Origin: Deltaproteobacteria bacterium
GTDB lineage: Bacteria > Bdellovibrionota_B > Oligoflexia > Oligoflexales > CAIYRB01
Length of the DNA: 64,000 nt
Assembly: GCA_016874735.1 (NCBI GenBank)
Contig: VGTI01000003.1
Location: 62,001-126,000 of the forward strand
Direction of reading: 5' to 3'
Shown here: positions 2,752 through 51,995 of the stretch, one piece after another
Layout: the number at the start of each line of letters is the position of its first letter
How positions within the stretch are numbered: position 1 is the stretch's first letter
Translations under genes and position numbers: made by a program
Notes under the pieces: model-generated
Told to the model about the DNA's origin: nothing
The model's database searches: none
The model's input: only the letters and a program-made list of their open reading frames with translations

Positions 2752-3577
2752 CGGCAACCCCGGCTACTGATTCATCTAGGTCAAGCTGGTCGTGACTTCC
2801 CGTAAGGGTAGCCGCCAGATCGTCCCCGTCATACTCGCCGCGCGTGTTGTCTGCAATATATTCTTCGACATCGACTAAATCGTCAGCGCTACCGCCTTCA
2901 ATCCGCGCCATGGCGCCTTGGACCATCTCCCTCGATGGTTGGAACGACTCAAGTGGTGGCAAGTCTTTAATACTACTTAAATTAAAAACGGTGAGAAATT
3001 GATCCGTTGTGCCAAAAAGCATTGGGCGGCCAACAATCTCCTTGCGGCCTACACATTTGATGAGATCTCGCTCAAGCAGCGTCTTAAATATGCTACCGGC
3101 ATCGACACCTCTAATAAATTCAACCTCGGCACGGGTGACAGGCTGCCGGTACGCAATAATTGCCAAAGTCTCGAGAGCAGCCCGGCTAATCGGTCGAGGG
3201 CGAGACGCGAACATGCGCTCCATGATTGCACCAGCAGACTCGGAGGTCTGAAATTGATATCCGAGCCTCTTCAAATAATGGAGACGGAAACCACCACTCC
3301 GATCCTCGTACTGGGTCACTAACTGATCCAGCGTGAGCTGAATATCCCCCTCGCCTACCGTAGGATCACCAAGAATGTCAAGTATATCTGATGCCTTAAG
3401 GGGCCTTTGCGAGGCAAATATAATAGCCTCAACCTTAGCCTCGAGGCGCATTGAGGCTAACTGTCGCTCCTTGGGTGGACTAGGCACCTGATGATCACCA
3501 GCTAGCTCATCGTCCAATGAGTCATAATGGTCGAATTCAGTTACTTCTATATTTTCAACGTCTTCCATGTGACTCAT
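2672..3577 (-). CDS. scpB: Segregation and condensation protein ScpB
   Basis: 301 residues. ScpB is the winged-helix kleisin partner that works with SMC and ScpA in chromosome condensation and segregation. The conserved core is about residues 45-205: LEAKVEAIIFAS, ETLAIIAYRQPVTRAEVEFIRGV and a GRPMLFGTTDQFL wing. The usual length is about 180-200 residues. Here there is an acidic N-terminal extension (about 40 residues) and a long Asp/Glu/Gly-rich tail of about 90 residues. Part of that tail is encoded by DNA that also encodes the start of rluB. The ATG overlaps the scpA stop as ATGA, which implies translational coupling. Confidence 0.9.
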   Translation of the reverse strand: MSHMEDVENIEVTEFDHYDSLDDELAGDHQVPSPPKERQLASMRLEAKVEAIIFASQRPLKASDILDILGDPTVGEGDIQLTLDQLVTQYEDRSGGFRLHYLKRLGYQFQTSESAGAIMERMFASRPRPISRAALETLAIIAYRQPVTRAEVEFIRGVDAGSIFKTLLERDLIKCVGRKEIVGRPMLFGTTDQFLTVFNLSSIKDLPPLESFQPSREMVQGAMARIEGGSADDLVDVEEYIADNTRGEYDGDDLAATLTGSHDQLDLDESVAGVADGANENSEVVVPDGDSLSPGGGDLDT

Positions 3578-4383
3578 AAGTTACCACCAAGGTCTGGAGT
3601 TTGTTCCACAGAACCTACAGATGGGGGCAAGGGCAAGACCGACTCATCGCAGTCCATGCGGTACATCCACACTGGTCCCATCAGTTCGGTTTGGTATACC
3701 TGAATACGTTTCATCTTCGAAAGCTCAAGCATGGCCATCACATGGACAACGAGTTCGTCCCGAGATTGGAGCCGGTTATATATACCCTGGAATAAGGCAA
3801 ACCGTGCCTGTTCGATTTCTCGCGCCAATTTTTCAATGGTGTCTTCCACCGTTATTCTGTGCAACTTTGCAGTATGCTTGGATTTTCTTCGCTCTGAGAG
3901 CCCTCTGAGCATCTGCTCGTAAAGTACGACCAACGTTGGCGCGTCACCCTGAAGTGGTGACTCTATGTGCTCGTAAAGCGGCGCTAAACGTTGCCACTCA
4001 TTGTTGGGTTGGATCTCCACCCCCATCTGAGGCATCTGACTAAAGTGATCCGCTGCATTACGAAACATTTCGTACTGCAGCAGCCGCTCCTGCAGGGACT
4101 TCACAGGATCGTCTTGCTCGCCATCTGTGTCATCAGTGGCCTTTTCATCTCCCGGCAGCAACATGCGCGTCTTGATCTCAATCAAGGTCGCTGCCATCTC
4201 AATAAATTCACCCGCCTGCTGCAAATCAGCAAACTGCATGAGTCGCAGGTAGCTTAAGTACTCCTGGGTCAGCAGCAAAACATCGATAGCGAATATGTCA
4301 ATTTCATGCACCCGGATCAGGTGCAACAGAAGGTCAAGCGGCCCTTCGAACTGATTGGTTTTGACGAAATACTCTGAGCTCAT
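3574..4383 (-). CDS. scpA: Segregation and condensation protein ScpA
   Basis: 269 residues. ScpA is the kleisin that bridges SMC heads and binds ScpB. The N-terminal signature is clear: FEGPLDLLLHLIRVHEIDI, then YLSYLRLMQ and EFIEMAATLIEIKTRMLLP. The C-terminal winged helix includes VVHVMAMLELSKMKRIQVYQ. The length matches the family. It is the first gene of a minus-strand operon with scpB and rluB. Its 5' end faces the LuxE-LuxC gene; the promoter is probably in the divergent interval 4384-4525. Confidence 0.92.
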   Translation of the reverse strand: MSSEYFVKTNQFEGPLDLLLHLIRVHEIDIFAIDVLLLTQEYLSYLRLMQFADLQQAGEFIEMAATLIEIKTRMLLPGDEKATDDTDGEQDDPVKSLQERLLQYEMFRNAADHFSQMPQMGVEIQPNNEWQRLAPLYEHIESPLQGDAPTLVVLYEQMLRGLSERRKSKHTAKLHRITVEDTIEKLAREIEQARFALFQGIYNRLQSRDELVVHVMAMLELSKMKRIQVYQTELMGPVWMYRMDCDESVLPLPPSVGSVEQTPDLGGNL

Positions 4384-4525
4384 CGATCGCCTACAAGTCG
4401 GCTACCCAGTGGCTGCAAATGTTGGACTTTCTTCTAAACTTTACGTTATACCGTGGAGCTTACCACCGGCCAAGGAATTTCGCCGGGAAAATCCCCATAA
4501 AGATTATTGTTACAAGCACAAATCC
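4384..4525. promoter_or_regulatory. Divergent intergenic interval between scpA and the LuxE-LuxC gene
   Basis: If the plus-strand gene starts at ATG 4526, this 142-bp interval separates two divergent starts and must hold at least the scpA promoter. The plus-strand frame stays open upstream to a TTG at 4355 inside scpA. The residues encoded there are not obviously conserved, so the interval may instead be partly coding. No clear -35/-10 pair was recognised. Confidence 0.3.
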
Positions 4526-6682
4526 ATGGCCAATAACCCAAGTTGCACACTACTAGACGGACTGATTGACGGCACTGAGTTCGTTAAGTACCTGCCCATT
4601 GAGGCACTAAGGGGCGACGGAGCGAAGGCTTGTTTTCGTCAGGGTGTAATCGAAAAGACCTTTAGATCTAGCGGCACTACCACTCAAGATAGGTCTCTAT
4701 CCCACTTCTCTGCCGTGGGATTGGCGCAGTATCAGCAACAAAGTATAAAAAGGTTTGCATTCATACTGGATCAAGTGCAGCCGTTGGATAAAAGTGAAAG
4801 CCGCCTCGGACTAAGCCTGGTACCTGATCAGGATGCGTGGCCTGAAAGTAGTCTGGCGCAGATGCTTTCGTGGATTGCTTCGATTTACGAGGTAAGGTTC
4901 GTATCCGAAGGCGAACTCACTGATGTTATTGCAGCAAATATTGGGCGGCCTTTGTGGTTGTTTGGTACGGCTTTTCACTGGGTTAACGTATTGGATAGTG
5001 GATCTCACTGCACCCTGGCCCCGGGTTCTGTAATTTTTGAGACCGGTGGCACAAAAGGGCGAACGCGAGAAGTGTCGAGAAGCCACCTCTATCAGGAGCT
5101 TTCTCACGCTTTTCGAATCAACACAGAGGCCATCGTAAGCGAGTACGGCATGAGTGAGCTCTCCTGCCAGGCATATGATTACGTGCCACATGGTCGGATC
5201 TTAGAATTAGACAATCGCAGATTCCGGTTTGCCCCAGATGTGGACGTGGCTGTGCTAGGGCGGCCTGGTGCGGCATATCGCAAGGGTCGCGGCGCCTTGA
5301 TGGTTCGCGACCCAGCTCGGACTGATTACCCCTGGTACTTCCGCACCGAGGACCTAGTGGAGCTCGAAAACGGTGCCTTTCGGTTACTTGGGCGGGCACC
5401 CAAAGCCGCCCTAAAGGGATGCTCCCTTGGAGCTGAAAGGGCGCTGGTACCGGTTACCAGGGACAGCAATTCACATGACTTTCCCCTCGTCAGCAACGAT
5501 CACAAGGCGCCACTGGCCGCCGGGCATCTCTCGGCAGGTCGGATCGCCGCATTGAGCGGCCATTTAAGAGACTTCTGCAGTGACAGGGAAGTCATCGCGG
5601 CACTTTCTGAGGAGCTAGGCTCTTCCCAAGCAGCGACGATTGCCCTTCAAGATCTTACGGATGGCATGCCTGGGGATTTTGATGGATGGGTCAAGGCCGT
5701 GACGGTGGCTTTAGGAAACTTAGCTGGCACATTGCAAAAATGGCTCGTGATCCTTCCGGAAAATCACTCTTTGGTTGGTCTATACCCTCTCAGCATAGGT
5801 TACTTAGCGGGACTCAATTTGACGGTCAGACAGCCGTCGATGTTTCAAAAAGGTCGGAGCCCGCTCTCGTTATTTCTAACCGGATTAGCCAGCCTTCCCG
5901 AAGCCCGCTTGAGTATACTGCCCCCACAATGGCGCATCATGGGTGTCGGAGAAACGCTACCATTTGATGCCATCTTGAGTTACGGCACATCCGAAACAGT
6001 TGATAAAATTCAGAGCCTTACCAACCTTCCAGTCCGCGGTTTTGGGCATCGCATAGCGGTATCAATCATTCCGATCACGGCCACGCTGGATCAAGTTGAC
6101 CGGGTTACCAAGGACTGCCTCGGATTGGGGCAATTGGGCTGTATGTCGTCACGCCTAATCTGTGTCGCTGGAAAAGAGGGGGGAAAAGGTTCACTGAAAA
6201 GCCTGATCCAAAGTTTGCAATCATCGGGGCAGAAATTCTGGTCGAAGGATTTCCCCTGGCGTCAAATGGTGAGTTTGGACTTCGAGCATTTTCGTCAAGC
6301 AAATTTAGGGGCAGAGGTCTTTGTGCCACCGAGTACTGCCCACCCACTAGTCTGCTTAACGAAGTTGCCTAACCTTGGTGAGCTAGAGGGACTCGAGAAC
6401 GCATTGGCGCAAAATCAGTTTTGTCTTTCCGTTGCTGCAATTGACACCCAAGATATACCAGAAATATCTGTTAATATTGCAAAATATCTGTCCGACAGGA
6501 GAAACCTCGGCACTTTGACTGTACCCTTTTCCGTGCTGAACCAGACCCAAGAGCTGCTCCTTCGCAGTGGTTTAAGCTGTCACTCAGTAAGGCCACTAGG
6601 CGAGGCAAACGCACCAAAATGGGACGGTCTGCACGAGGGCATCCCGTTATTCGACCCATCACTGCGGGAGCCGATTCTTTAG
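4526..6682 (+). CDS. LuxE-LuxC fusion: acyl-protein synthetase joined to acyl-CoA/acyl-protein reductase
   Basis: 718 residues from ATG 4526 (the frame is open to TTG 4355, which would add 57). Residues 1 to about 310 resemble LuxE, an ATP-dependent acyl-protein synthetase: FRSSGTT at 46-52, ETGGTKGR near 173-179, EYGMSEL near 206-212, then RTEDLVEL and LLGRAPKAALKGCSL. Residues about 385-700 resemble LuxC, the NADPH acyl reductase: LPEN near 410, SIGYLAGLNL, YGTSETVDKI, and GQLGCMSSR with the candidate nucleophile Cys539. C-terminal WDGLHEGIPLF is also LuxC-like. In luminous bacteria these are separate subunits making fatty aldehyde; a fusion would channel acyl groups. No luciferase or luxD is nearby, so a role in aldehyde, alcohol or lipid synthesis is inferred. 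No strong ribosome site was seen at either start. Confidence 0.78.
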   Translation: MANNPSCTLLDGLIDGTEFVKYLPIEALRGDGAKACFRQGVIEKTFRSSGTTTQDRSLSHFSAVGLAQYQQQSIKRFAFILDQVQPLDKSESRLGLSLVPDQDAWPESSLAQMLSWIASIYEVRFVSEGELTDVIAANIGRPLWLFGTAFHWVNVLDSGSHCTLAPGSVIFETGGTKGRTREVSRSHLYQELSHAFRINTEAIVSEYGMSELSCQAYDYVPHGRILELDNRRFRFAPDVDVAVLGRPGAAYRKGRGALMVRDPARTDYPWYFRTEDLVELENGAFRLLGRAPKAALKGCSLGAERALVPVTRDSNSHDFPLVSNDHKAPLAAGHLSAGRIAALSGHLRDFCSDREVIAALSEELGSSQAATIALQDLTDGMPGDFDGWVKAVTVALGNLAGTLQKWLVILPENHSLVGLYPLSIGYLAGLNLTVRQPSMFQKGRSPLSLFLTGLASLPEARLSILPPQWRIMGVGETLPFDAILSYGTSETVDKIQSLTNLPVRGFGHRIAVSIIPITATLDQVDRVTKDCLGLGQLGCMSSRLICVAGKEGGKGSLKSLIQSLQSSGQKFWSKDFPWRQMVSLDFEHFRQANLGAEVFVPPSTAHPLVCLTKLPNLGELEGLENALAQNQFCLSVAAIDTQDIPEISVNIAKYLSDRRNLGTLTVPFSVLNQTQELLLRSGLSCHSVRPLGEANAPKWDGLHEGIPLFDPSLREPIL

Positions 6683-6822
6683 TCTCTGCCTTCATGCTAT
6701 CTTATAAGAAAGCCCCTAAATTACCGCTTCTCGCACGGCTCTAGAACAGACGTCGTGCGGCCGTATTCTTGAAAAACTCGGTGGCCCAACGGTTGTCGTC
6801 ACATAATATAAGGTTTGTCTGC

Positions 6823-7398
6823 ATGACTGAATGGGTTAGGCACATGCACACATACGATGCGGAACAACTGCGTATGCTAGCTTACACTTACTACGAAAAT
6901 TTCCTGCCACATTTCCGTCAACAGCCGGAAGGATCTTTGATTGAGCCGGTGACCATCGAATTCTCCAGCAGGATGAAACAAAAACTGGGGCTTGCATTTC
7001 TTTTTGAGCATAAGATACGGTTAAATTTACCATATTTCCGTTCAGACCCCAGCCTACTACCTTACACACTATTCCATGAACTGACACATTTGTGGCTTTA
7101 CGACTGCATGCTGGACCCAGGGCATACCCGCCGCTTTTACAAGAAAATGAGGGACTTTGAGGCAACCGGTTTAGCTATTGATCCCGACGTCCACATACAT
7201 ACTCGCGTGGCCGCGGAGGGTAAGTTCGTGTATAGTTGCCCTAACTGTAAGAACCGCTGGTACTTGCGTGACCAGCTAAAGTATTCAATTTATTGTGGTC
7301 ACTGCTTTGACAGAGAGGGAATTGAGTATTTCGCTGAGGGCCTTAGCATCTCAGGCCGCCACGAAAACATATGTAAGGATACTGATTCCGCAGCCTGA
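6823..7398 (+). CDS. SprT-like zinc metallopeptidase-fold protein
   Basis: 191 residues from ATG 6823, preceded by AAGG about 9 nt upstream; the frame extends to TTG 6769. The active-site helix is HELTHLWLY (HExxH), with a third His in PGHTRRF. A C-terminal zinc ribbon has CPNC and CGHC pairs. SprT-like domains are related to the DNA-protein crosslink protease Spartan, but the role of bacterial SprT is not established. Spacing of 10 bp to the M14 peptidase gene suggests co-transcription. Confidence 0.8.
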   Translation: MTEWVRHMHTYDAEQLRMLAYTYYENFLPHFRQQPEGSLIEPVTIEFSSRMKQKLGLAFLFEHKIRLNLPYFRSDPSLLPYTLFHELTHLWLYDCMLDPGHTRRFYKKMRDFEATGLAIDPDVHIHTRVAAEGKFVYSCPNCKNRWYLRDQLKYSIYCGHCFDREGIEYFAEGLSISGRHENICKDTDSAA

Positions 7399-8556: not shown

Positions 8557-9882
8557 CTACAAACCTTGAACTGTGATTGCCTCTGGACACGTCTCGCCTT
8601 GATTGACCGGGGCTCCGAGTCTAAGCCAAAAGTCCCAAGGATGTTCGCCCTTTGATAAGCCGGAGACCTCAAAGTACATTCCGGATCGTCCAGGGGTATC
8701 AGCGCCCTCTCCGTCCCAATTCATGCTGTCGCGAGCGGCATGAACATCGTCCACATAAAATGGGAAAAAACCTTTTTCCACAAGTCTACGTTCGATGCCA
8801 ATGTCCATCGCAAGTAACTGCCCCATAAGGTTCACGTTATAGCGATATAAACACGAGCTACCCCGACAGAACTTAAGTCCAACCTCACTTAAGTTTTTTT
8901 TGCCTCTCTTAATTAACTCACTATCAAGCCTGGGCATCCGAATGTCTTTATGACTTCGTTGAACGGCGGGCGCCAACATCCAACTGTAGAGAATACCGCT
9001 GCCTTGATTCAAGTAGGTACCCGCGTCTACTGGCAAATTTAGCAGCATGGGGATGTGACCCGAGTCGGCAAAAAATCCGACATCGGTGGCTAAACTCATT
9101 TTTATCTTCAGGAACAATACTTTTAAAAAAAATGATAACCTGGCTAAGCTCGATACAGGTCCAATTCGTTTTTCCTCAAGCTTAGACTTTATATGGCGGG
9201 AGTCAAAATGCAGAGTAAAAAAATTTTTTGTATCTGCAGTAATCAACATCCGTGAGTCTGTAGCGATATCTTCCCAAATTCCGTCCTCTCGCCTGAACTT
9301 GATACTGTCAAAAAGCATGTGATTGGAGGAGTTGAACTTATAAATGTAACGCTTACTTTGAAGTTGATGCTGGCTATCATCAAAGACGACCATGCCCGTA
9401 TCGCGTAGATCAGCTTTTGATTCACCCTCACAAATGGCGAGGTACGCGAATGACTCCTGACGCACATGACGTAACTCAAAAAACTGACGGGACTTACAAG
9501 GCCTAGCTTTCGAGCCCCTAGTGAGTTTAGTTCCGAAGTCTTCTGCCCTAAAAGTCAGCAGGTCTTGGTCGCTCACGTCGTCCGTTAACGATATGTTTTC
9601 ATTGGTAAAAACAACCCTTCCGTGATCATCGACTGGATCTAGTTGCAAAGGTATGGAACGCCATACCAAGCGGCCAGTGTGGGTATCTACAGCAAATAGT
9701 CTTAATCCCGAGCGTTTACCGTCAACTTTAACCGGTAGTTGGCCCACGAACATCGCTCCCGGACATGCCGTTACCCTTGTGGTACTCACCACCCAGAGTA
9801 TCAGCCACAAGACCCTCGACAAGCCCACCGTCGCGAGGCTATAGGTGCGCCGGGAGTCTTGACAATGGTTGGCAATGAACAT
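8557..9882 (-). CDS. Exported protein of unknown function
   Basis: 441 residues, family not recognised. A hydrophobic stretch VLWLILWVVSTTRVTACPG at about residues 24-42 looks like a signal peptide. The annotated ATG leaves a long N-region, so the true start may be an internal TTG/GTG a few codons later. Further along there is a DTHTGRLVWRSIPLQLDP segment, a Leu/Phe/Lys-rich stretch (SFFLKVLFLKIKMSL, near 250) and several Cys residues that could form disulfides. The C-terminal part includes a FYVDDVHAARDSMNWDG region. It starts 15 bp from queA on the opposite strand, so the two share a very compact divergent region. The function is unknown. Confidence 0.6.
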   Translation of the reverse strand: MFIANHCQDSRRTYSLATVGLSRVLWLILWVVSTTRVTACPGAMFVGQLPVKVDGKRSGLRLFAVDTHTGRLVWRSIPLQLDPVDDHGRVVFTNENISLTDDVSDQDLLTFRAEDFGTKLTRGSKARPCKSRQFFELRHVRQESFAYLAICEGESKADLRDTGMVVFDDSQHQLQSKRYIYKFNSSNHMLFDSIKFRREDGIWEDIATDSRMLITADTKNFFTLHFDSRHIKSKLEEKRIGPVSSLARLSFFLKVLFLKIKMSLATDVGFFADSGHIPMLLNLPVDAGTYLNQGSGILYSWMLAPAVQRSHKDIRMPRLDSELIKRGKKNLSEVGLKFCRGSSCLYRYNVNLMGQLLAMDIGIERRLVEKGFFPFYVDDVHAARDSMNWDGEGADTPGRSGMYFEVSGLSKGEHPWDFWLRLGAPVNQGETCPEAITVQGL

Positions 9883-9897: not shown

Positions 9898-11037
9898 ATG
9901 GAGAAAAGCAAGCTACACGAGCAATTGTTGCAACTGAGCGATTTCGATTACCCTTGCCCTCAACACTTGATCGCTCAAGAACCCATACCTGGTCGTAGCA
10001 ACTCCAAACTGCTAGTCAGAAGGCAAAACAGCACCACCGAAGATTTGCATGTATCTGATCTTACAACAGAAGTCCCTGGTGGCTCGCTATTAATTTTTAA
10101 CGAATCCAGGGTGTTTCCGAGCCGCATGTTAGGGCTTTTGCCGACTGGAGGCAGCATCGAAGTGTTTCTCCTCAGTGAGATCGGAACCACTGAGTCGCCA
10201 TCAAGATCTATTTGGCAGGCCCTGGGTAGACCAATGAAGAAGCTTAAACCTGGGGTCACGGTCCATTTTGAGCCACAATTAAGTGCCACAGTACTTGAAC
10301 GTTACGATGACAATGCTGGAAATAGTCTCATTAATCTTGAGTTTGATATGTCCCCCTCTGCATTCACGACATGGCTCGAACGCCATGGATTTATCCCGCT
10401 GCCTCCCTATATTAAACGCAAAAAACCGCTCAAAGCTGAGGCATCAGCAGATCGCGATAGATATCAAACTGTTTATGCACGACAGACTGGCTCGGTTGCC
10501 GCACCGACGGCGGGATTACATTTTACAGAAGAGCTTTTTGAATGCCTAAGATCACGAGAGATCGGGCTGCACTTCGTCTCGCTGCACGTGGGTGCTGGAA
10601 CATTTCTTCCCATTAAGACTCAAAATATTGCAGACCATCATATGCACTCCGAGCGTTATCGGGTCGGAAAAGAGACGGCGAAGGCCATCTACCAAGCCAG
10701 AATAAGCGGCCGAAAAGTAATAGCTGTCGGCACCACTACATTCAGAAGCCTAGAATCGCTTTACCGTAAAGCATCTGAGGATCCTGATAAATTTATCGAA
10801 CTAGCAGATTCTTGGCATAGTACTAATTTATTTCTAAGACCAACGAAAGATGGCGAAATTTACCGACCTTGGGTGATAGACGGCCTCTTTACCAATTTCC
10901 ATCAACCCTGCTCGACCCTCTTTATGCTCATTGCTACGATAGTTGGGTTAGAAGCAGCAAAGGACATGTACGCCGAAGCAGTGTCTAAAGGGTACCGTTT
11001 ATTCAGCTACGGTGATGCCAATCTCATTTGGCTTTAA
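9898..11037 (+). CDS. queA: S-adenosylmethionine:tRNA ribosyltransferase-isomerase QueA
   Basis: 379 residues from ATG 9898, which has GAGG about 10 nt upstream; the open frame to 9739 lies antisense to the neighbour and lacks QueA similarity. QueA transfers and isomerises the ribosyl moiety of SAM onto 7-aminomethyl-deazaguanine in tRNA, forming epoxyqueuosine. Family motifs: LSDFDYPCPQHLIAQEP, ESRVFPSRM, PLPPYIKR, YQTVYARQTGSVAAPTAGLHF, HVGAGTFLPIK and the terminal TNFHQPCSTLFMLI. The length is slightly above E. coli QueA (356). queE, another queuosine gene, is at 50.4 kb. Confidence 0.94.
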   Translation: MEKSKLHEQLLQLSDFDYPCPQHLIAQEPIPGRSNSKLLVRRQNSTTEDLHVSDLTTEVPGGSLLIFNESRVFPSRMLGLLPTGGSIEVFLLSEIGTTESPSRSIWQALGRPMKKLKPGVTVHFEPQLSATVLERYDDNAGNSLINLEFDMSPSAFTTWLERHGFIPLPPYIKRKKPLKAEASADRDRYQTVYARQTGSVAAPTAGLHFTEELFECLRSREIGLHFVSLHVGAGTFLPIKTQNIADHHMHSERYRVGKETAKAIYQARISGRKVIAVGTTTFRSLESLYRKASEDPDKFIELADSWHSTNLFLRPTKDGEIYRPWVIDGLFTNFHQPCSTLFMLIATIVGLEAAKDMYAEAVSKGYRLFSYGDANLIWL

Positions 11038-49154: not shown

Positions 49155-50414
49155 TCAGGTACCCTTAAGCTCCTGCAGACCGACTTTAATAGTTGCTAAC
49201 GCCTGCATCAATAGCGCTCTTGGAATATTTAAAGAAGGGGTGACACTCAGACTCTCGCCCCTTGGCCCGCTGGCTAGTGCAATGATACCTTTGGATCGCA
49301 GCAGGTCCATAAATTTTGCGCCTAACCCTGCGTCTACAAGTTCGATTACAATCATTAGCCCGATGCCGCGTATTTCTCGCACTAACCCATGATCCTTGAG
49401 TTCAGTTCTAAGCCACCTTAGTGCTTCCTGCCCGAGATTACTGGCCCGTTCAACCCATCCTCCTGCGTGAATCTCCCGTAAAGTAGCCAGGGCTATGTCA
49501 CATGACAGCGGGTGTCCAAAAAATGTTCCGGTATGGATTGCTTCGCCGGTACTGCTTGGCCAAGCCGCCATGACGGCATCGGTACCGACGCAAGCGGAAA
49601 TGGGAAAGCCCCCGCCAAATGCTTTACCTAAGCACAGTAAATCACAGGGCACGGTTTCCCCGAAGGTATACTGTCCAGTCCGACCTAATCCTGTGAAGAC
49701 CTCATCGTAAATTAGCAGGGTCCCAAATCTATCACATTCACGCCGTAGTATTTGGAGCCACTCAACCCCAGCTTCACGACATCCCGTGCGACCCTGTACC
49801 GGCTCGACCAAAACTGCCGCGATATCACCAGATGATAAAACTTTTGCCAACTCTTCGCTGTCACAGCGAAAGGGCAAAGAGACAACCCTATCTTCGCGAA
49901 GGAACCCCCTGAAAGGCGCACGAAAATCGGCTCTCTCGGTCAGCGGAAGGATCCCAATATCCAGACCGTGGTAACTACCCCCAAACACAACAAATCGACT
50001 ACGACCAGTCGCCAACATTGCCGACTTAACCGCTAACTCAACGGCTTGCGAACCCGTTAGAGCTAAAGCTGCAACTTGAAGCGTTGGAGGCATCAACGAA
50101 GGAAGGTATTTTAAGAGTTCGACCTTGGCCGCCGAACTGTAAACGTCACCCATACCGTGGGTGATCAAAGGGGCTTTTGTTCCAGGAGCCACATGGAGAC
50201 GCTCGGTCAGTACATGAATGTGGGCGTCAGGATTGTGGCCCAAGGCTAATGCGCCAAAACCCGCGCAGAGATCGATGTATTCCTGCCCTTCGACGTCATA
50301 AACAAGTGACCCCTTCGCCCTGTGCATCACCAACGCTGGATCTCGCGCCGGATAGGTTGCATCTGGACATTCAACCGCCTTTAATTGGGATAACATTTCA
50401 TCGTTGCGCATCAT
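49155..50414 (-). CDS. Class III PLP-dependent aminotransferase
   Basis: 419 residues. Family features: YIDLCAGFGALALGHN, ALTGSQAVELAVKSAMLATGR, an IYDEVFTGLGRTG segment and CLGKAFGGGFPISA with the PLP-binding Lys. HTGTFFGHPLSC is a substrate/PLP loop. Ornithine, acetylornithine, 4-aminobutyrate and glutamate-1-semialdehyde enzymes belong here, and the sequence does not decide between them. It directly abuts queE (the queE stop is one nt before its start on the same strand). Confidence 0.85.
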   Translation of the reverse strand: MMRNDEMLSQLKAVECPDATYPARDPALVMHRAKGSLVYDVEGQEYIDLCAGFGALALGHNPDAHIHVLTERLHVAPGTKAPLITHGMGDVYSSAAKVELLKYLPSLMPPTLQVAALALTGSQAVELAVKSAMLATGRSRFVVFGGSYHGLDIGILPLTERADFRAPFRGFLREDRVVSLPFRCDSEELAKVLSSGDIAAVLVEPVQGRTGCREAGVEWLQILRRECDRFGTLLIYDEVFTGLGRTGQYTFGETVPCDLLCLGKAFGGGFPISACVGTDAVMAAWPSSTGEAIHTGTFFGHPLSCDIALATLREIHAGGWVERASNLGQEALRWLRTELKDHGLVREIRGIGLMIVIELVDAGLGAKFMDLLRSKGIIALASGPRGESLSVTPSLNIPRALLMQALATIKVGLQELKGT

Positions 50415-51068
50415 TCAAACACCCTTGGCTCTGGGCCCCCAGATGTACTTATGCTGCTGCAGCTGCATGCGACAACGCATTGGCCGCTCAAGTATCCAGG
50501 CAGCTAAATCCTTCGGTGCAACGTGCCCCCAGGCACAGGAGAATAAAATCTGAAAACGGTCGTCCAAATGATGTTTTTGAACTTCCTCAAGCGCCCAATC
50601 AAAATCTGAGCGGCTTGCTACGACAAATTTAATCTCGTCGCTGGACTTTAGTCGCCCAAAATTTGCGACTAAGTTCCGAGAGGTCATTCCACTGTCTGGA
50701 CACTTCCAGTCCATGATGATGTGGGTCTCTTGAGGTAAGACTCCTACGTCCTCCGATCCACTTGTCTCACAGAGTAACTTGAAACCCTCAGCTACGAGTC
50801 GCGTGGCCAAAAGGGCGGCTCCTGGCTGAGCCAATGGCTCCCCTCCAGTCAACTCTACTAAAGGAACTCCAAGCCGTTTGACCTCATCAATAATCGCTTG
50901 AATCGACCAAGCCGTCCCACCTTTAAAAGCGTAGGCTGTGTCACACCACCGGCATCTTAGCGGACAACCCGTCAGCCTAACAAATGTACATGGAATGCCC
51001 GCAAACGCGGACTCTCCTTGAATGCTCGCGTAGATCTCGGTAATGGTTAGCTGGTCTAATTCATGCAC
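50415..51068 (-). CDS. queE: 7-Carboxy-7-deazaguanine synthase
   Basis: 217 residues. Radical SAM enzyme of the queuosine/7-deazaguanine pathway; it contracts the ring of 6-carboxytetrahydropterin. The Fe4S4 motif is CPLRCRWC (CxxxCxxC), followed by DTAYAF. SIQGES at the N-terminus binds substrate; ELTGGEPL and CETSG are also family motifs. queA lies 40 kb away and queC/queD/queF are not in the window. Its 5' end overlaps that of the divergent membrane protein gene by a few bases. Confidence 0.93.
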   Translation of the reverse strand: MHELDQLTITEIYASIQGESAFAGIPCTFVRLTGCPLRCRWCDTAYAFKGGTAWSIQAIIDEVKRLGVPLVELTGGEPLAQPGAALLATRLVAEGFKLLCETSGSEDVGVLPQETHIIMDWKCPDSGMTSRNLVANFGRLKSSDEIKFVVASRSDFDWALEEVQKHHLDDRFQILFSCAWGHVAPKDLAAWILERPMRCRMQLQQHKYIWGPRAKGV

Positions 51069-51995
51069 GGTGACACCTTGGACTCACGAATTTCAATCTC
51101 AGACAGTCGGACAGATCGTCGCATTTTGCTTTCGGGCGATGTTTGGCGGCTGGCTATCACTAGTATCAAAGGCACTTGGCGACAATCTAATCTGCTACTG
51201 TGGATCGGCTTGATCGTCCCTCAATTGTCTCTCAACCTTTGGCTTGACCTCACCAGTCTTCCTGTTGTGGACGAGCTCCGCGCGTTGTTTACCTCGAAAT
51301 GGGGGGCTTCGGGAAGTCCACTTATACTCGGTGAACTTCTTGGTCCTGCTGCCCACTATTTTTGGCGGCTTGGGCTACTTGCATTGAGTACAAGTTTAAT
51401 TGGTCTTTCCAGTTACTTAGGGATAATTCAAACCCAAGTGGACTACCTCCGCAACCAACCACCTCGCGGCGCATTTGCGGCATGGTTGAAAGGGTTGCGG
51501 CGCTCCATACAAACCTCTATCATTTTGTTTTTGCTGTGCTTTTTTGTTTTGTTGGCCGGACAAGTGATGATTGTACCTGCTTTGCTCATTGGCGTGTTGG
51601 GGCTGATGATCCCGACCATCTTGATGTGTGAAGAAAAAGGCATTGGTCATGCACTTAGGTCGGCCTTGTTGATTCGTTACATCCGCGGTACCCGCCTGTC
51701 GGGTTGGTCAGTGATCTTCAACATAATGAGTATCGGGGCGTTCCTTTACGGCACCATGGCTGCAACGGGACTCTTGGCAGAGCTCATTCTCGGACTTGAC
51801 GAGGTCGTTGGATTATCACGCGGCCTCTGGGATCTAAGAGTAGGTGGCTCCGGGTTATCCGTCATATACCTAGTTGTCTCATTCTTTGAGCCAATCCTTA
51901 GTATGACCTGGCTTAGCTTGATTCCAGCATTAACAACTTCACTGTACTTTATAGTCCGGCGCGACGATGAAGGCCGGACCATTGCTCAGGTATAG
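51063..51995 (+). CDS. Integral membrane protein of unknown function
   Basis: 310 residues with about six predicted membrane segments: near 45-62, 95-125, 150-185, 215-240 and 260-300, with few charged residues. No Met follows the first until about residue 169, so ATG 51063 is the natural start, although a TTG five codons on is possible. The N-terminus overlaps the queE start in antisense. No family is recognised; it may be a transporter accessory or an unknown permease-like protein. The 3' end overlaps the lplA-family gene by 47 bp tail to tail. Confidence 0.6.
   Translation: MHGDTLDSRISISDSRTDRRILLSGDVWRLAITSIKGTWRQSNLLLWIGLIVPQLSLNLWLDLTSLPVVDELRALFTSKWGASGSPLILGELLGPAAHYFWRLGLLALSTSLIGLSSYLGIIQTQVDYLRNQPPRGAFAAWLKGLRRSIQTSIILFLLCFFVLLAGQVMIVPALLIGVLGLMIPTILMCEEKGIGHALRSALLIRYIRGTRLSGWSVIFNIMSIGAFLYGTMAATGLLAELILGLDEVVGLSRGLWDLRVGGSGLSVIYLVVSFFEPILSMTWLSLIPALTTSLYFIVRRDDEGRTIAQV

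Follow-up and report, generated by a model that had tools for sequence, protein, structure and literature searches.

A fused LuxE-LuxC protein of Oligoflexales is a proposed 7-carboxy-7-deazaguanine reductase on a route to preQ1 without QueC and QueF

Introduction

The window analyzed here, a stretch of 64,000 nucleotides from a 4.65-Mb draft genome of the order Oligoflexales, encodes a protein in which a LuxE-like and a LuxC-like half are joined in one chain, and the question raised by this locus is what an acid reductase of the luminescence type does where no luminescence genes surround it. An earlier note, made from the sequence, had proposed a fatty aldehyde or alcohol pathway outside bioluminescence and had seen no clear pathway in the gene context. 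QueC (preQ0 synthase) and QueF (preQ0 nitrile reductase) have been described as required for preQ1, and genomes without them have been read as salvagers (PMC5372724, PMC11130926). From the comparison of genomes described below, we consider it very likely that the fusion is a reductase of 7-carboxy-7-deazaguanine (CDG) and that, together with a class III aminotransferase, it replaces QueC and QueF in the formation of preQ1, from which the tRNA base queuosine is made. In the open-access literature, neither a link between queuosine and LuxE nor such a route was found; prior publication elsewhere is possible.

A single chain with LuxE- and LuxC-like halves

The reading frame is open from a TTG at 4355 to 6682, and the ATG at 4526 is backed by homologues, for example by the same start residue at locus L002 (Table 1). 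In Pfam searches, the window protein alone scored 17.6 bits for LuxC (PF05893), below the cut-off of 21, and had no match to LuxE (PF04443), but its homologues match both families, with 12 of 23 matching LuxC at E<=1 (best 7.9e-8) and 7 of 23 matching LuxE (best 5e-7). A profile of the fusion family matches LuxE of Photobacterium phosphoreum (7xc6_E, 7e-6) and places C299, in the motif LKGCSL, on the cysteine of the C-terminal KGCSL, while a profile of the LuxC half matches LuxC of the same complex (7xc6_A, 1.3e-32) and places C539 on the cysteine of DQQACFS. Both cysteines are invariant in 23/23 sequences and again in 33/33. The AlphaFold model (pLDDT 87, pTM 0.86) is confident except for the linker of residues 299-326 that bears Cys299, and its first-ranked Foldseek match in the PDB is 7xc6_A, with an ALDH-like fold. 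These relatives were found with an alignment as the query; the single window protein gave no match when searched against genome contigs, and no match was found in phage records.

Homologues, profiles and fold thus bear out the fusion described in the earlier note, in which a single chain holds both an acyl-activating and an acyl-reducing domain: the family matches both domains rather than one, and Cys539, the residue put forward there as the LuxC nucleophile, shows no variation and falls on the cysteine of 7xc6_A in the alignment. The LuxE-type Cys299 had been missed, and the junction, which had been placed near residue 370, lies instead at about 299-336, at the disordered linker.

The LuxC-LuxE complex 7xc6 resembles the fusion in its two families, in the KGCSL carrier cysteine near the LuxE C-terminus, in the LuxC nucleophile and in the ALDH-like fold. 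The fusion differs from it in being one chain, in having no lux genes around it and in its link to que genes, and the substrate proposed for it is CDG rather than a fatty acid. The absence of luciferase genes nearby holds beyond the window, as luxABD are absent among the conserved neighbors at about 30 loci. That the closest solved structure is a fatty acid reductase complex of the same families and fold would favor a fatty acid reductase acting outside bioluminescence, whose aldehyde or alcohol products, made from fatty acids, would go into lipids or waxes, but the identity to the solved LuxC match is only 15%, and the gene associations described below weigh against this explanation.

By annotation, a fused LuxE-LuxC protein is not unprecedented, in that LuxE-type and LuxC-type activities are both annotated for a single protein, RfbN, of a non-luminescent pathway (PMC9201469, PMC4772473). 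RfbN lies in an O-antigen locus, and it is by annotation that it is set beside the fusion. A similar role here, in which a sugar acid or hydroxy acid would be reduced for an O-antigen or glycan, has a parallel in the luxE and luxC genes of Aeromonas flagellar glycosylation islands (PMC7874193). We give this explanation almost no weight, as no conserved glycan genes were found beside the fusion at about 30 Oligoflexales loci and the presence of the fusion tracks QueC and QueF.

Queuosine genes in the neighborhood of the fusion

In the usual Oligoflexales order, the fusion is divergent from scpA and is followed by genes for a SprT-like protein, an M14 peptidase and QueA. In the window, queA lies 3.2 kb downstream of the fusion in the same direction, an arrangement that is syntenic across the order, and queE and a class III aminotransferase gene lie 43-44 kb off, with the aminotransferase gene directly after queE at 0 intergenic bases. 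The context is therefore more telling than the earlier note had judged it. The proximity of queA to the fusion in Oligoflexales, taken with a queD gene right after luxC in Verrucomicrobiota (see below), suggests queuosine. The SprT and M14 neighbors were also considered as a clue to the pathway and gave none, and no preQ1 riboswitch was found.

Table 1. Features of the window and the tandem PTPS gene found elsewhere in the same genome.
Feature	Position	Strand	Evidence and remarks
scpA	3574..4383	-	PF02616; divergent conserved neighbor; synteny marker, outside the pathway
LuxE-LuxC fusion, 718 aa (proposed CDG reductase)	4526..6682	+	LuxE-like ~1-298; Cys299 in disordered linker 299-326; LuxC-like ~337-718 with Cys539
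SprT-like metallopeptidase	6769..7398	+	PF10263; conserved downstream neighbor; synteny marker
441-aa protein	8557-9882	-	No Pfam match; between M14 and queA; syntenic in 16 loci including the window
queA (tRNA preQ1(34) S-adenosylmethionine ribosyltransferase-isomerase)	9898..11037	+	NF001140, 365.7 bits, cut-off 324
Class III aminotransferase	49155..50414	-	PF00202, E=6.5e-70; PLP lysine K264
queE	50415..51068	-	TIGR04349, E=2.8e-76, 255.9 bits, below the cut-off of 300; Pfam Radical_SAM
310-aa ORF	51063-51995	+	No Pfam match; divergent from queE
Tandem PTPS, about 300-320 aa (probable two-domain QueD)	L127:2257-3216 (own genome); also L238, L239 (f12)		DH motif in N-half, C-x4-HGH in C-half

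Alternation of the fusion with QueC and QueF in Oligoflexales

If LuxE-LuxC acts on CDG, QueC and QueF are predicted to be missing where it is present. The fusion is carried by 34 of 38 sampled Oligoflexales genomes, split into two overlapping ORFs in G029 and with its halves on different contigs in G031. Genuine QueC (E<1e-57) and QueF (E<1e-15) were found only in G023, G025 and G034, all of which are without the fusion, and the fourth genome without it, G019, has no QueC, QueF or QueA. Of the 28 members of the order in which QueA was detected, 25 carry the fusion in whole or split form and three have QueC and QueF, with no genome having both or neither, as counted with queries of single concatenated proteins (used for QueA, Tgt and the fusion, and for Verrucomicrobiota) by which divergent members may be missed. 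The profile test for QueF covers Oligoflexales, and that for QueC also covers other lineages. As the three QueC/QueF genomes all belong to family f11, the exchange there may be a single event. Fusion genomes also gave weak hits in both tests, and these were rejected: the partial hits to QueF, with E values from about 1e-4 to 1e-7, were taken for other T-fold proteins, and the mostly partial hits to QueC, with E values from about 1e-4 to 1e-6, for other ATPases. A partial QueF hit of this type is seen also in genomes that have genuine QueF.

The remaining genes of the pathway accompany the fusion. Tgt and QueA are present throughout the fusion genomes, QueE was found in most of them (none detected in G012, G014, G017 and G030), and most also have a QueD-like protein, with a few lacking a detected QueD; these metagenome-assembled genomes (MAGs) are incomplete, yet QueD and QueE were detected in the majority of them. 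The tandem PTPS (Table 1) is probably a two-domain QueD, because it retains motifs of the QueD type and its gene overlaps queE in the Silvanigrella-like group f12. A short PTPS of the window's own genome was dropped as a QueD candidate, as it adjoins an aromatic amino acid hydroxylase gene of the biopterin type. The locus concerned (L126:7604-11176), in which a PTPS gene is grouped with genes for an SDR and the aromatic amino acid hydroxylase, is probably a biopterin-dependent hydroxylase cluster.

An orthologue of the class III aminotransferase (E<=1e-75) was detected in 33/36 fusion genomes and in 0/3 QueC/QueF genomes; the three fusion genomes in which it was undetected (G012, G017 and G074) are fragmented or incomplete. 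Its gene adjoins queE in most fusion genomes, and no such adjacency was found in G025 and G034. In a tree, the QueE-linked aminotransferases of Oligoflexales, Verrucomicrobiota and f12 group together, apart from BioA, ArgD, GabT and HemL of E. coli (support 96/76), and NCBIfam NF053554 is among the matches of the linked enzymes. An aldehyde route would need an amination step, and the enzyme whose gene follows queE, a class III aminotransferase, fits this need. Terminal aldehydes are substrates of such enzymes, as in GabT, putrescine aminotransferase and PigE.

Independent recurrence in Verrucomicrobiota and other lineages

Among 59 genomes of Verrucomicrobiota (the phylum of G053), 46 have QueC, five have LuxE and LuxC, none has both and eight have neither, an exclusion with a Fisher p of 2.6e-4 by a statistic that ignores relatedness. 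This pattern is an independent replicate of that in Oligoflexales. More than 20 Verrucomicrobiota loci show luxE-luxC-queD operons, some with an MFS gene between luxE and luxC, and at four loci of this phylum the order is queE-aminotransferase-luxE-luxC-queD. Some Verrucomicrobiota also have a fused LuxE-LuxC, and in f12 the fused form occurs at least in G076, G078 and G080. Outside the class of the window genome, QueC was found in 0/51 LuxE-bearing genomes from many phyla. One f12 MAG (G058, identical to G076) has a QueC-family gene (L243:686-1264, minus strand) on a 3.7-kb contig, which is probably a defense gene because a TIR (ThsB-like) gene adjoins it.

A fatty acid reductase would leave unexplained why two phyla show the QueC/QueF exclusion, why queD and queE occur in the operons and why an aminotransferase is linked, and we consider it very unlikely. 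Of the earlier proposal, the use outside luminescence stands; the fatty aldehyde pathway has been replaced, given that the presence pattern and the que gene neighborhoods point to 7-deazaguanine.

The main rival explanation accepts the same gene associations and holds that QueE, LuxE-LuxC and the aminotransferase make another 7-deazaguanine product, such as a cofactor, a metabolite or a DNA base, while preQ1 is imported for Tgt and QueA. Salvage of preQ1 is indeed known in bacteria without QueC and QueF (PMC5372724, PMC11130926), but salvagers are usually without QueD and QueE too (PMC5372724), and the order-wide conservation, the proximity of queA and the strict alternation with QueC and QueF argue for the same end product. 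We therefore regard this explanation as unlikely, though less so than a fatty acid reductase. It is likely, if marginally less so than the function proposed for the Oligoflexales fusion itself, that a preQ0-free route of LuxE/LuxC and an aminotransferase replaces QueC and QueF in several phyla, with the two proteins fused in Oligoflexales and the Silvanigrella-like group and separate in Verrucomicrobiota and others.

The MFS gene between luxE and luxC occurs at L087:8933-10189 and also at L061, L063, L071, L079, L081, L084, L089 and L099. By analogy with an MFS transporter of queuosine precursors known from Bartonella (PMC11130926), its product is a candidate 7-deazaguanine transporter. Related luxE-luxC pairs on plasmids of Pantoea, Azospirillum and Priestia (L111, L112 and L113) have SDR genes close by, and in two of the three the genes immediately downstream encode ABC transporters. 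These pairs probably serve a related but different acid-reducing pathway, and with such neighbors not every close relative need serve the queuosine route.

The proposed route from CDG to preQ1

In the following route, the substrate and product, the intermediates and the order in which the acyl group is passed on are those that we infer from the genomes. QueD and QueE would supply CDG, which the LuxE half would activate with ATP to CDG-AMP, the acyl group then being loaded on Cys299. By way of its flexible linker, this cysteine would pass the acyl group on to Cys539 in the LuxC half, and the thioester would there be reduced by NADPH to 7-formyl-7-deazaguanine. The aminotransferase would convert this aldehyde to preQ1 (7-aminomethyl-7-deazaguanine), on which Tgt and QueA would then act as usual, so that preQ0 would be bypassed.

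LuxE and QueC both activate a carboxylate with ATP, and from this family knowledge it might be supposed that the fusion instead feeds amide or nitrile formation, through a QueC-like adenylation that yields ADG or preQ0, LuxC then having some function other than CDG reduction. This is scarcely probable, as the LuxC nucleophile is invariant, QueF is also absent and the aminotransferase would have nothing to act on.

Like QueC and QueF, the proposed CDG reductase and its aminotransferase would take CDG to preQ1 at the expense of ATP and NADPH, but with unrelated proteins and through an aldehyde and transamination rather than through ADG and a nitrile, and the two sets are mutually exclusive. The same chemical logic is seen in PigE of prodigiosin synthesis, in which a thioester is reduced to an aldehyde and class III transamination then gives a primary amine, with a reductase of another family and another substrate. 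Non-orthologous replacement within queuosine synthesis is also seen at a different, later step, where QueH stands in for QueG (PMC5372724). If the proposed route is correct, many genomes without QueC and QueF would be makers of preQ1 and not salvagers, a tRNA-modification pathway would have a second chemical solution, by way of an aldehyde and transamination, and acid reductases of the luminescence type would act in nucleobase synthesis.

The QueC/QueF genomes have one Tgt. A second Tgt paralogue was observed in fusion genomes (L177:3597-4751, L179:2599-4638, L180:3803-5833 and L181:3205-4920), which in some is longer by about 200-300 residues and, by eye, is methyltransferase-like in L181.
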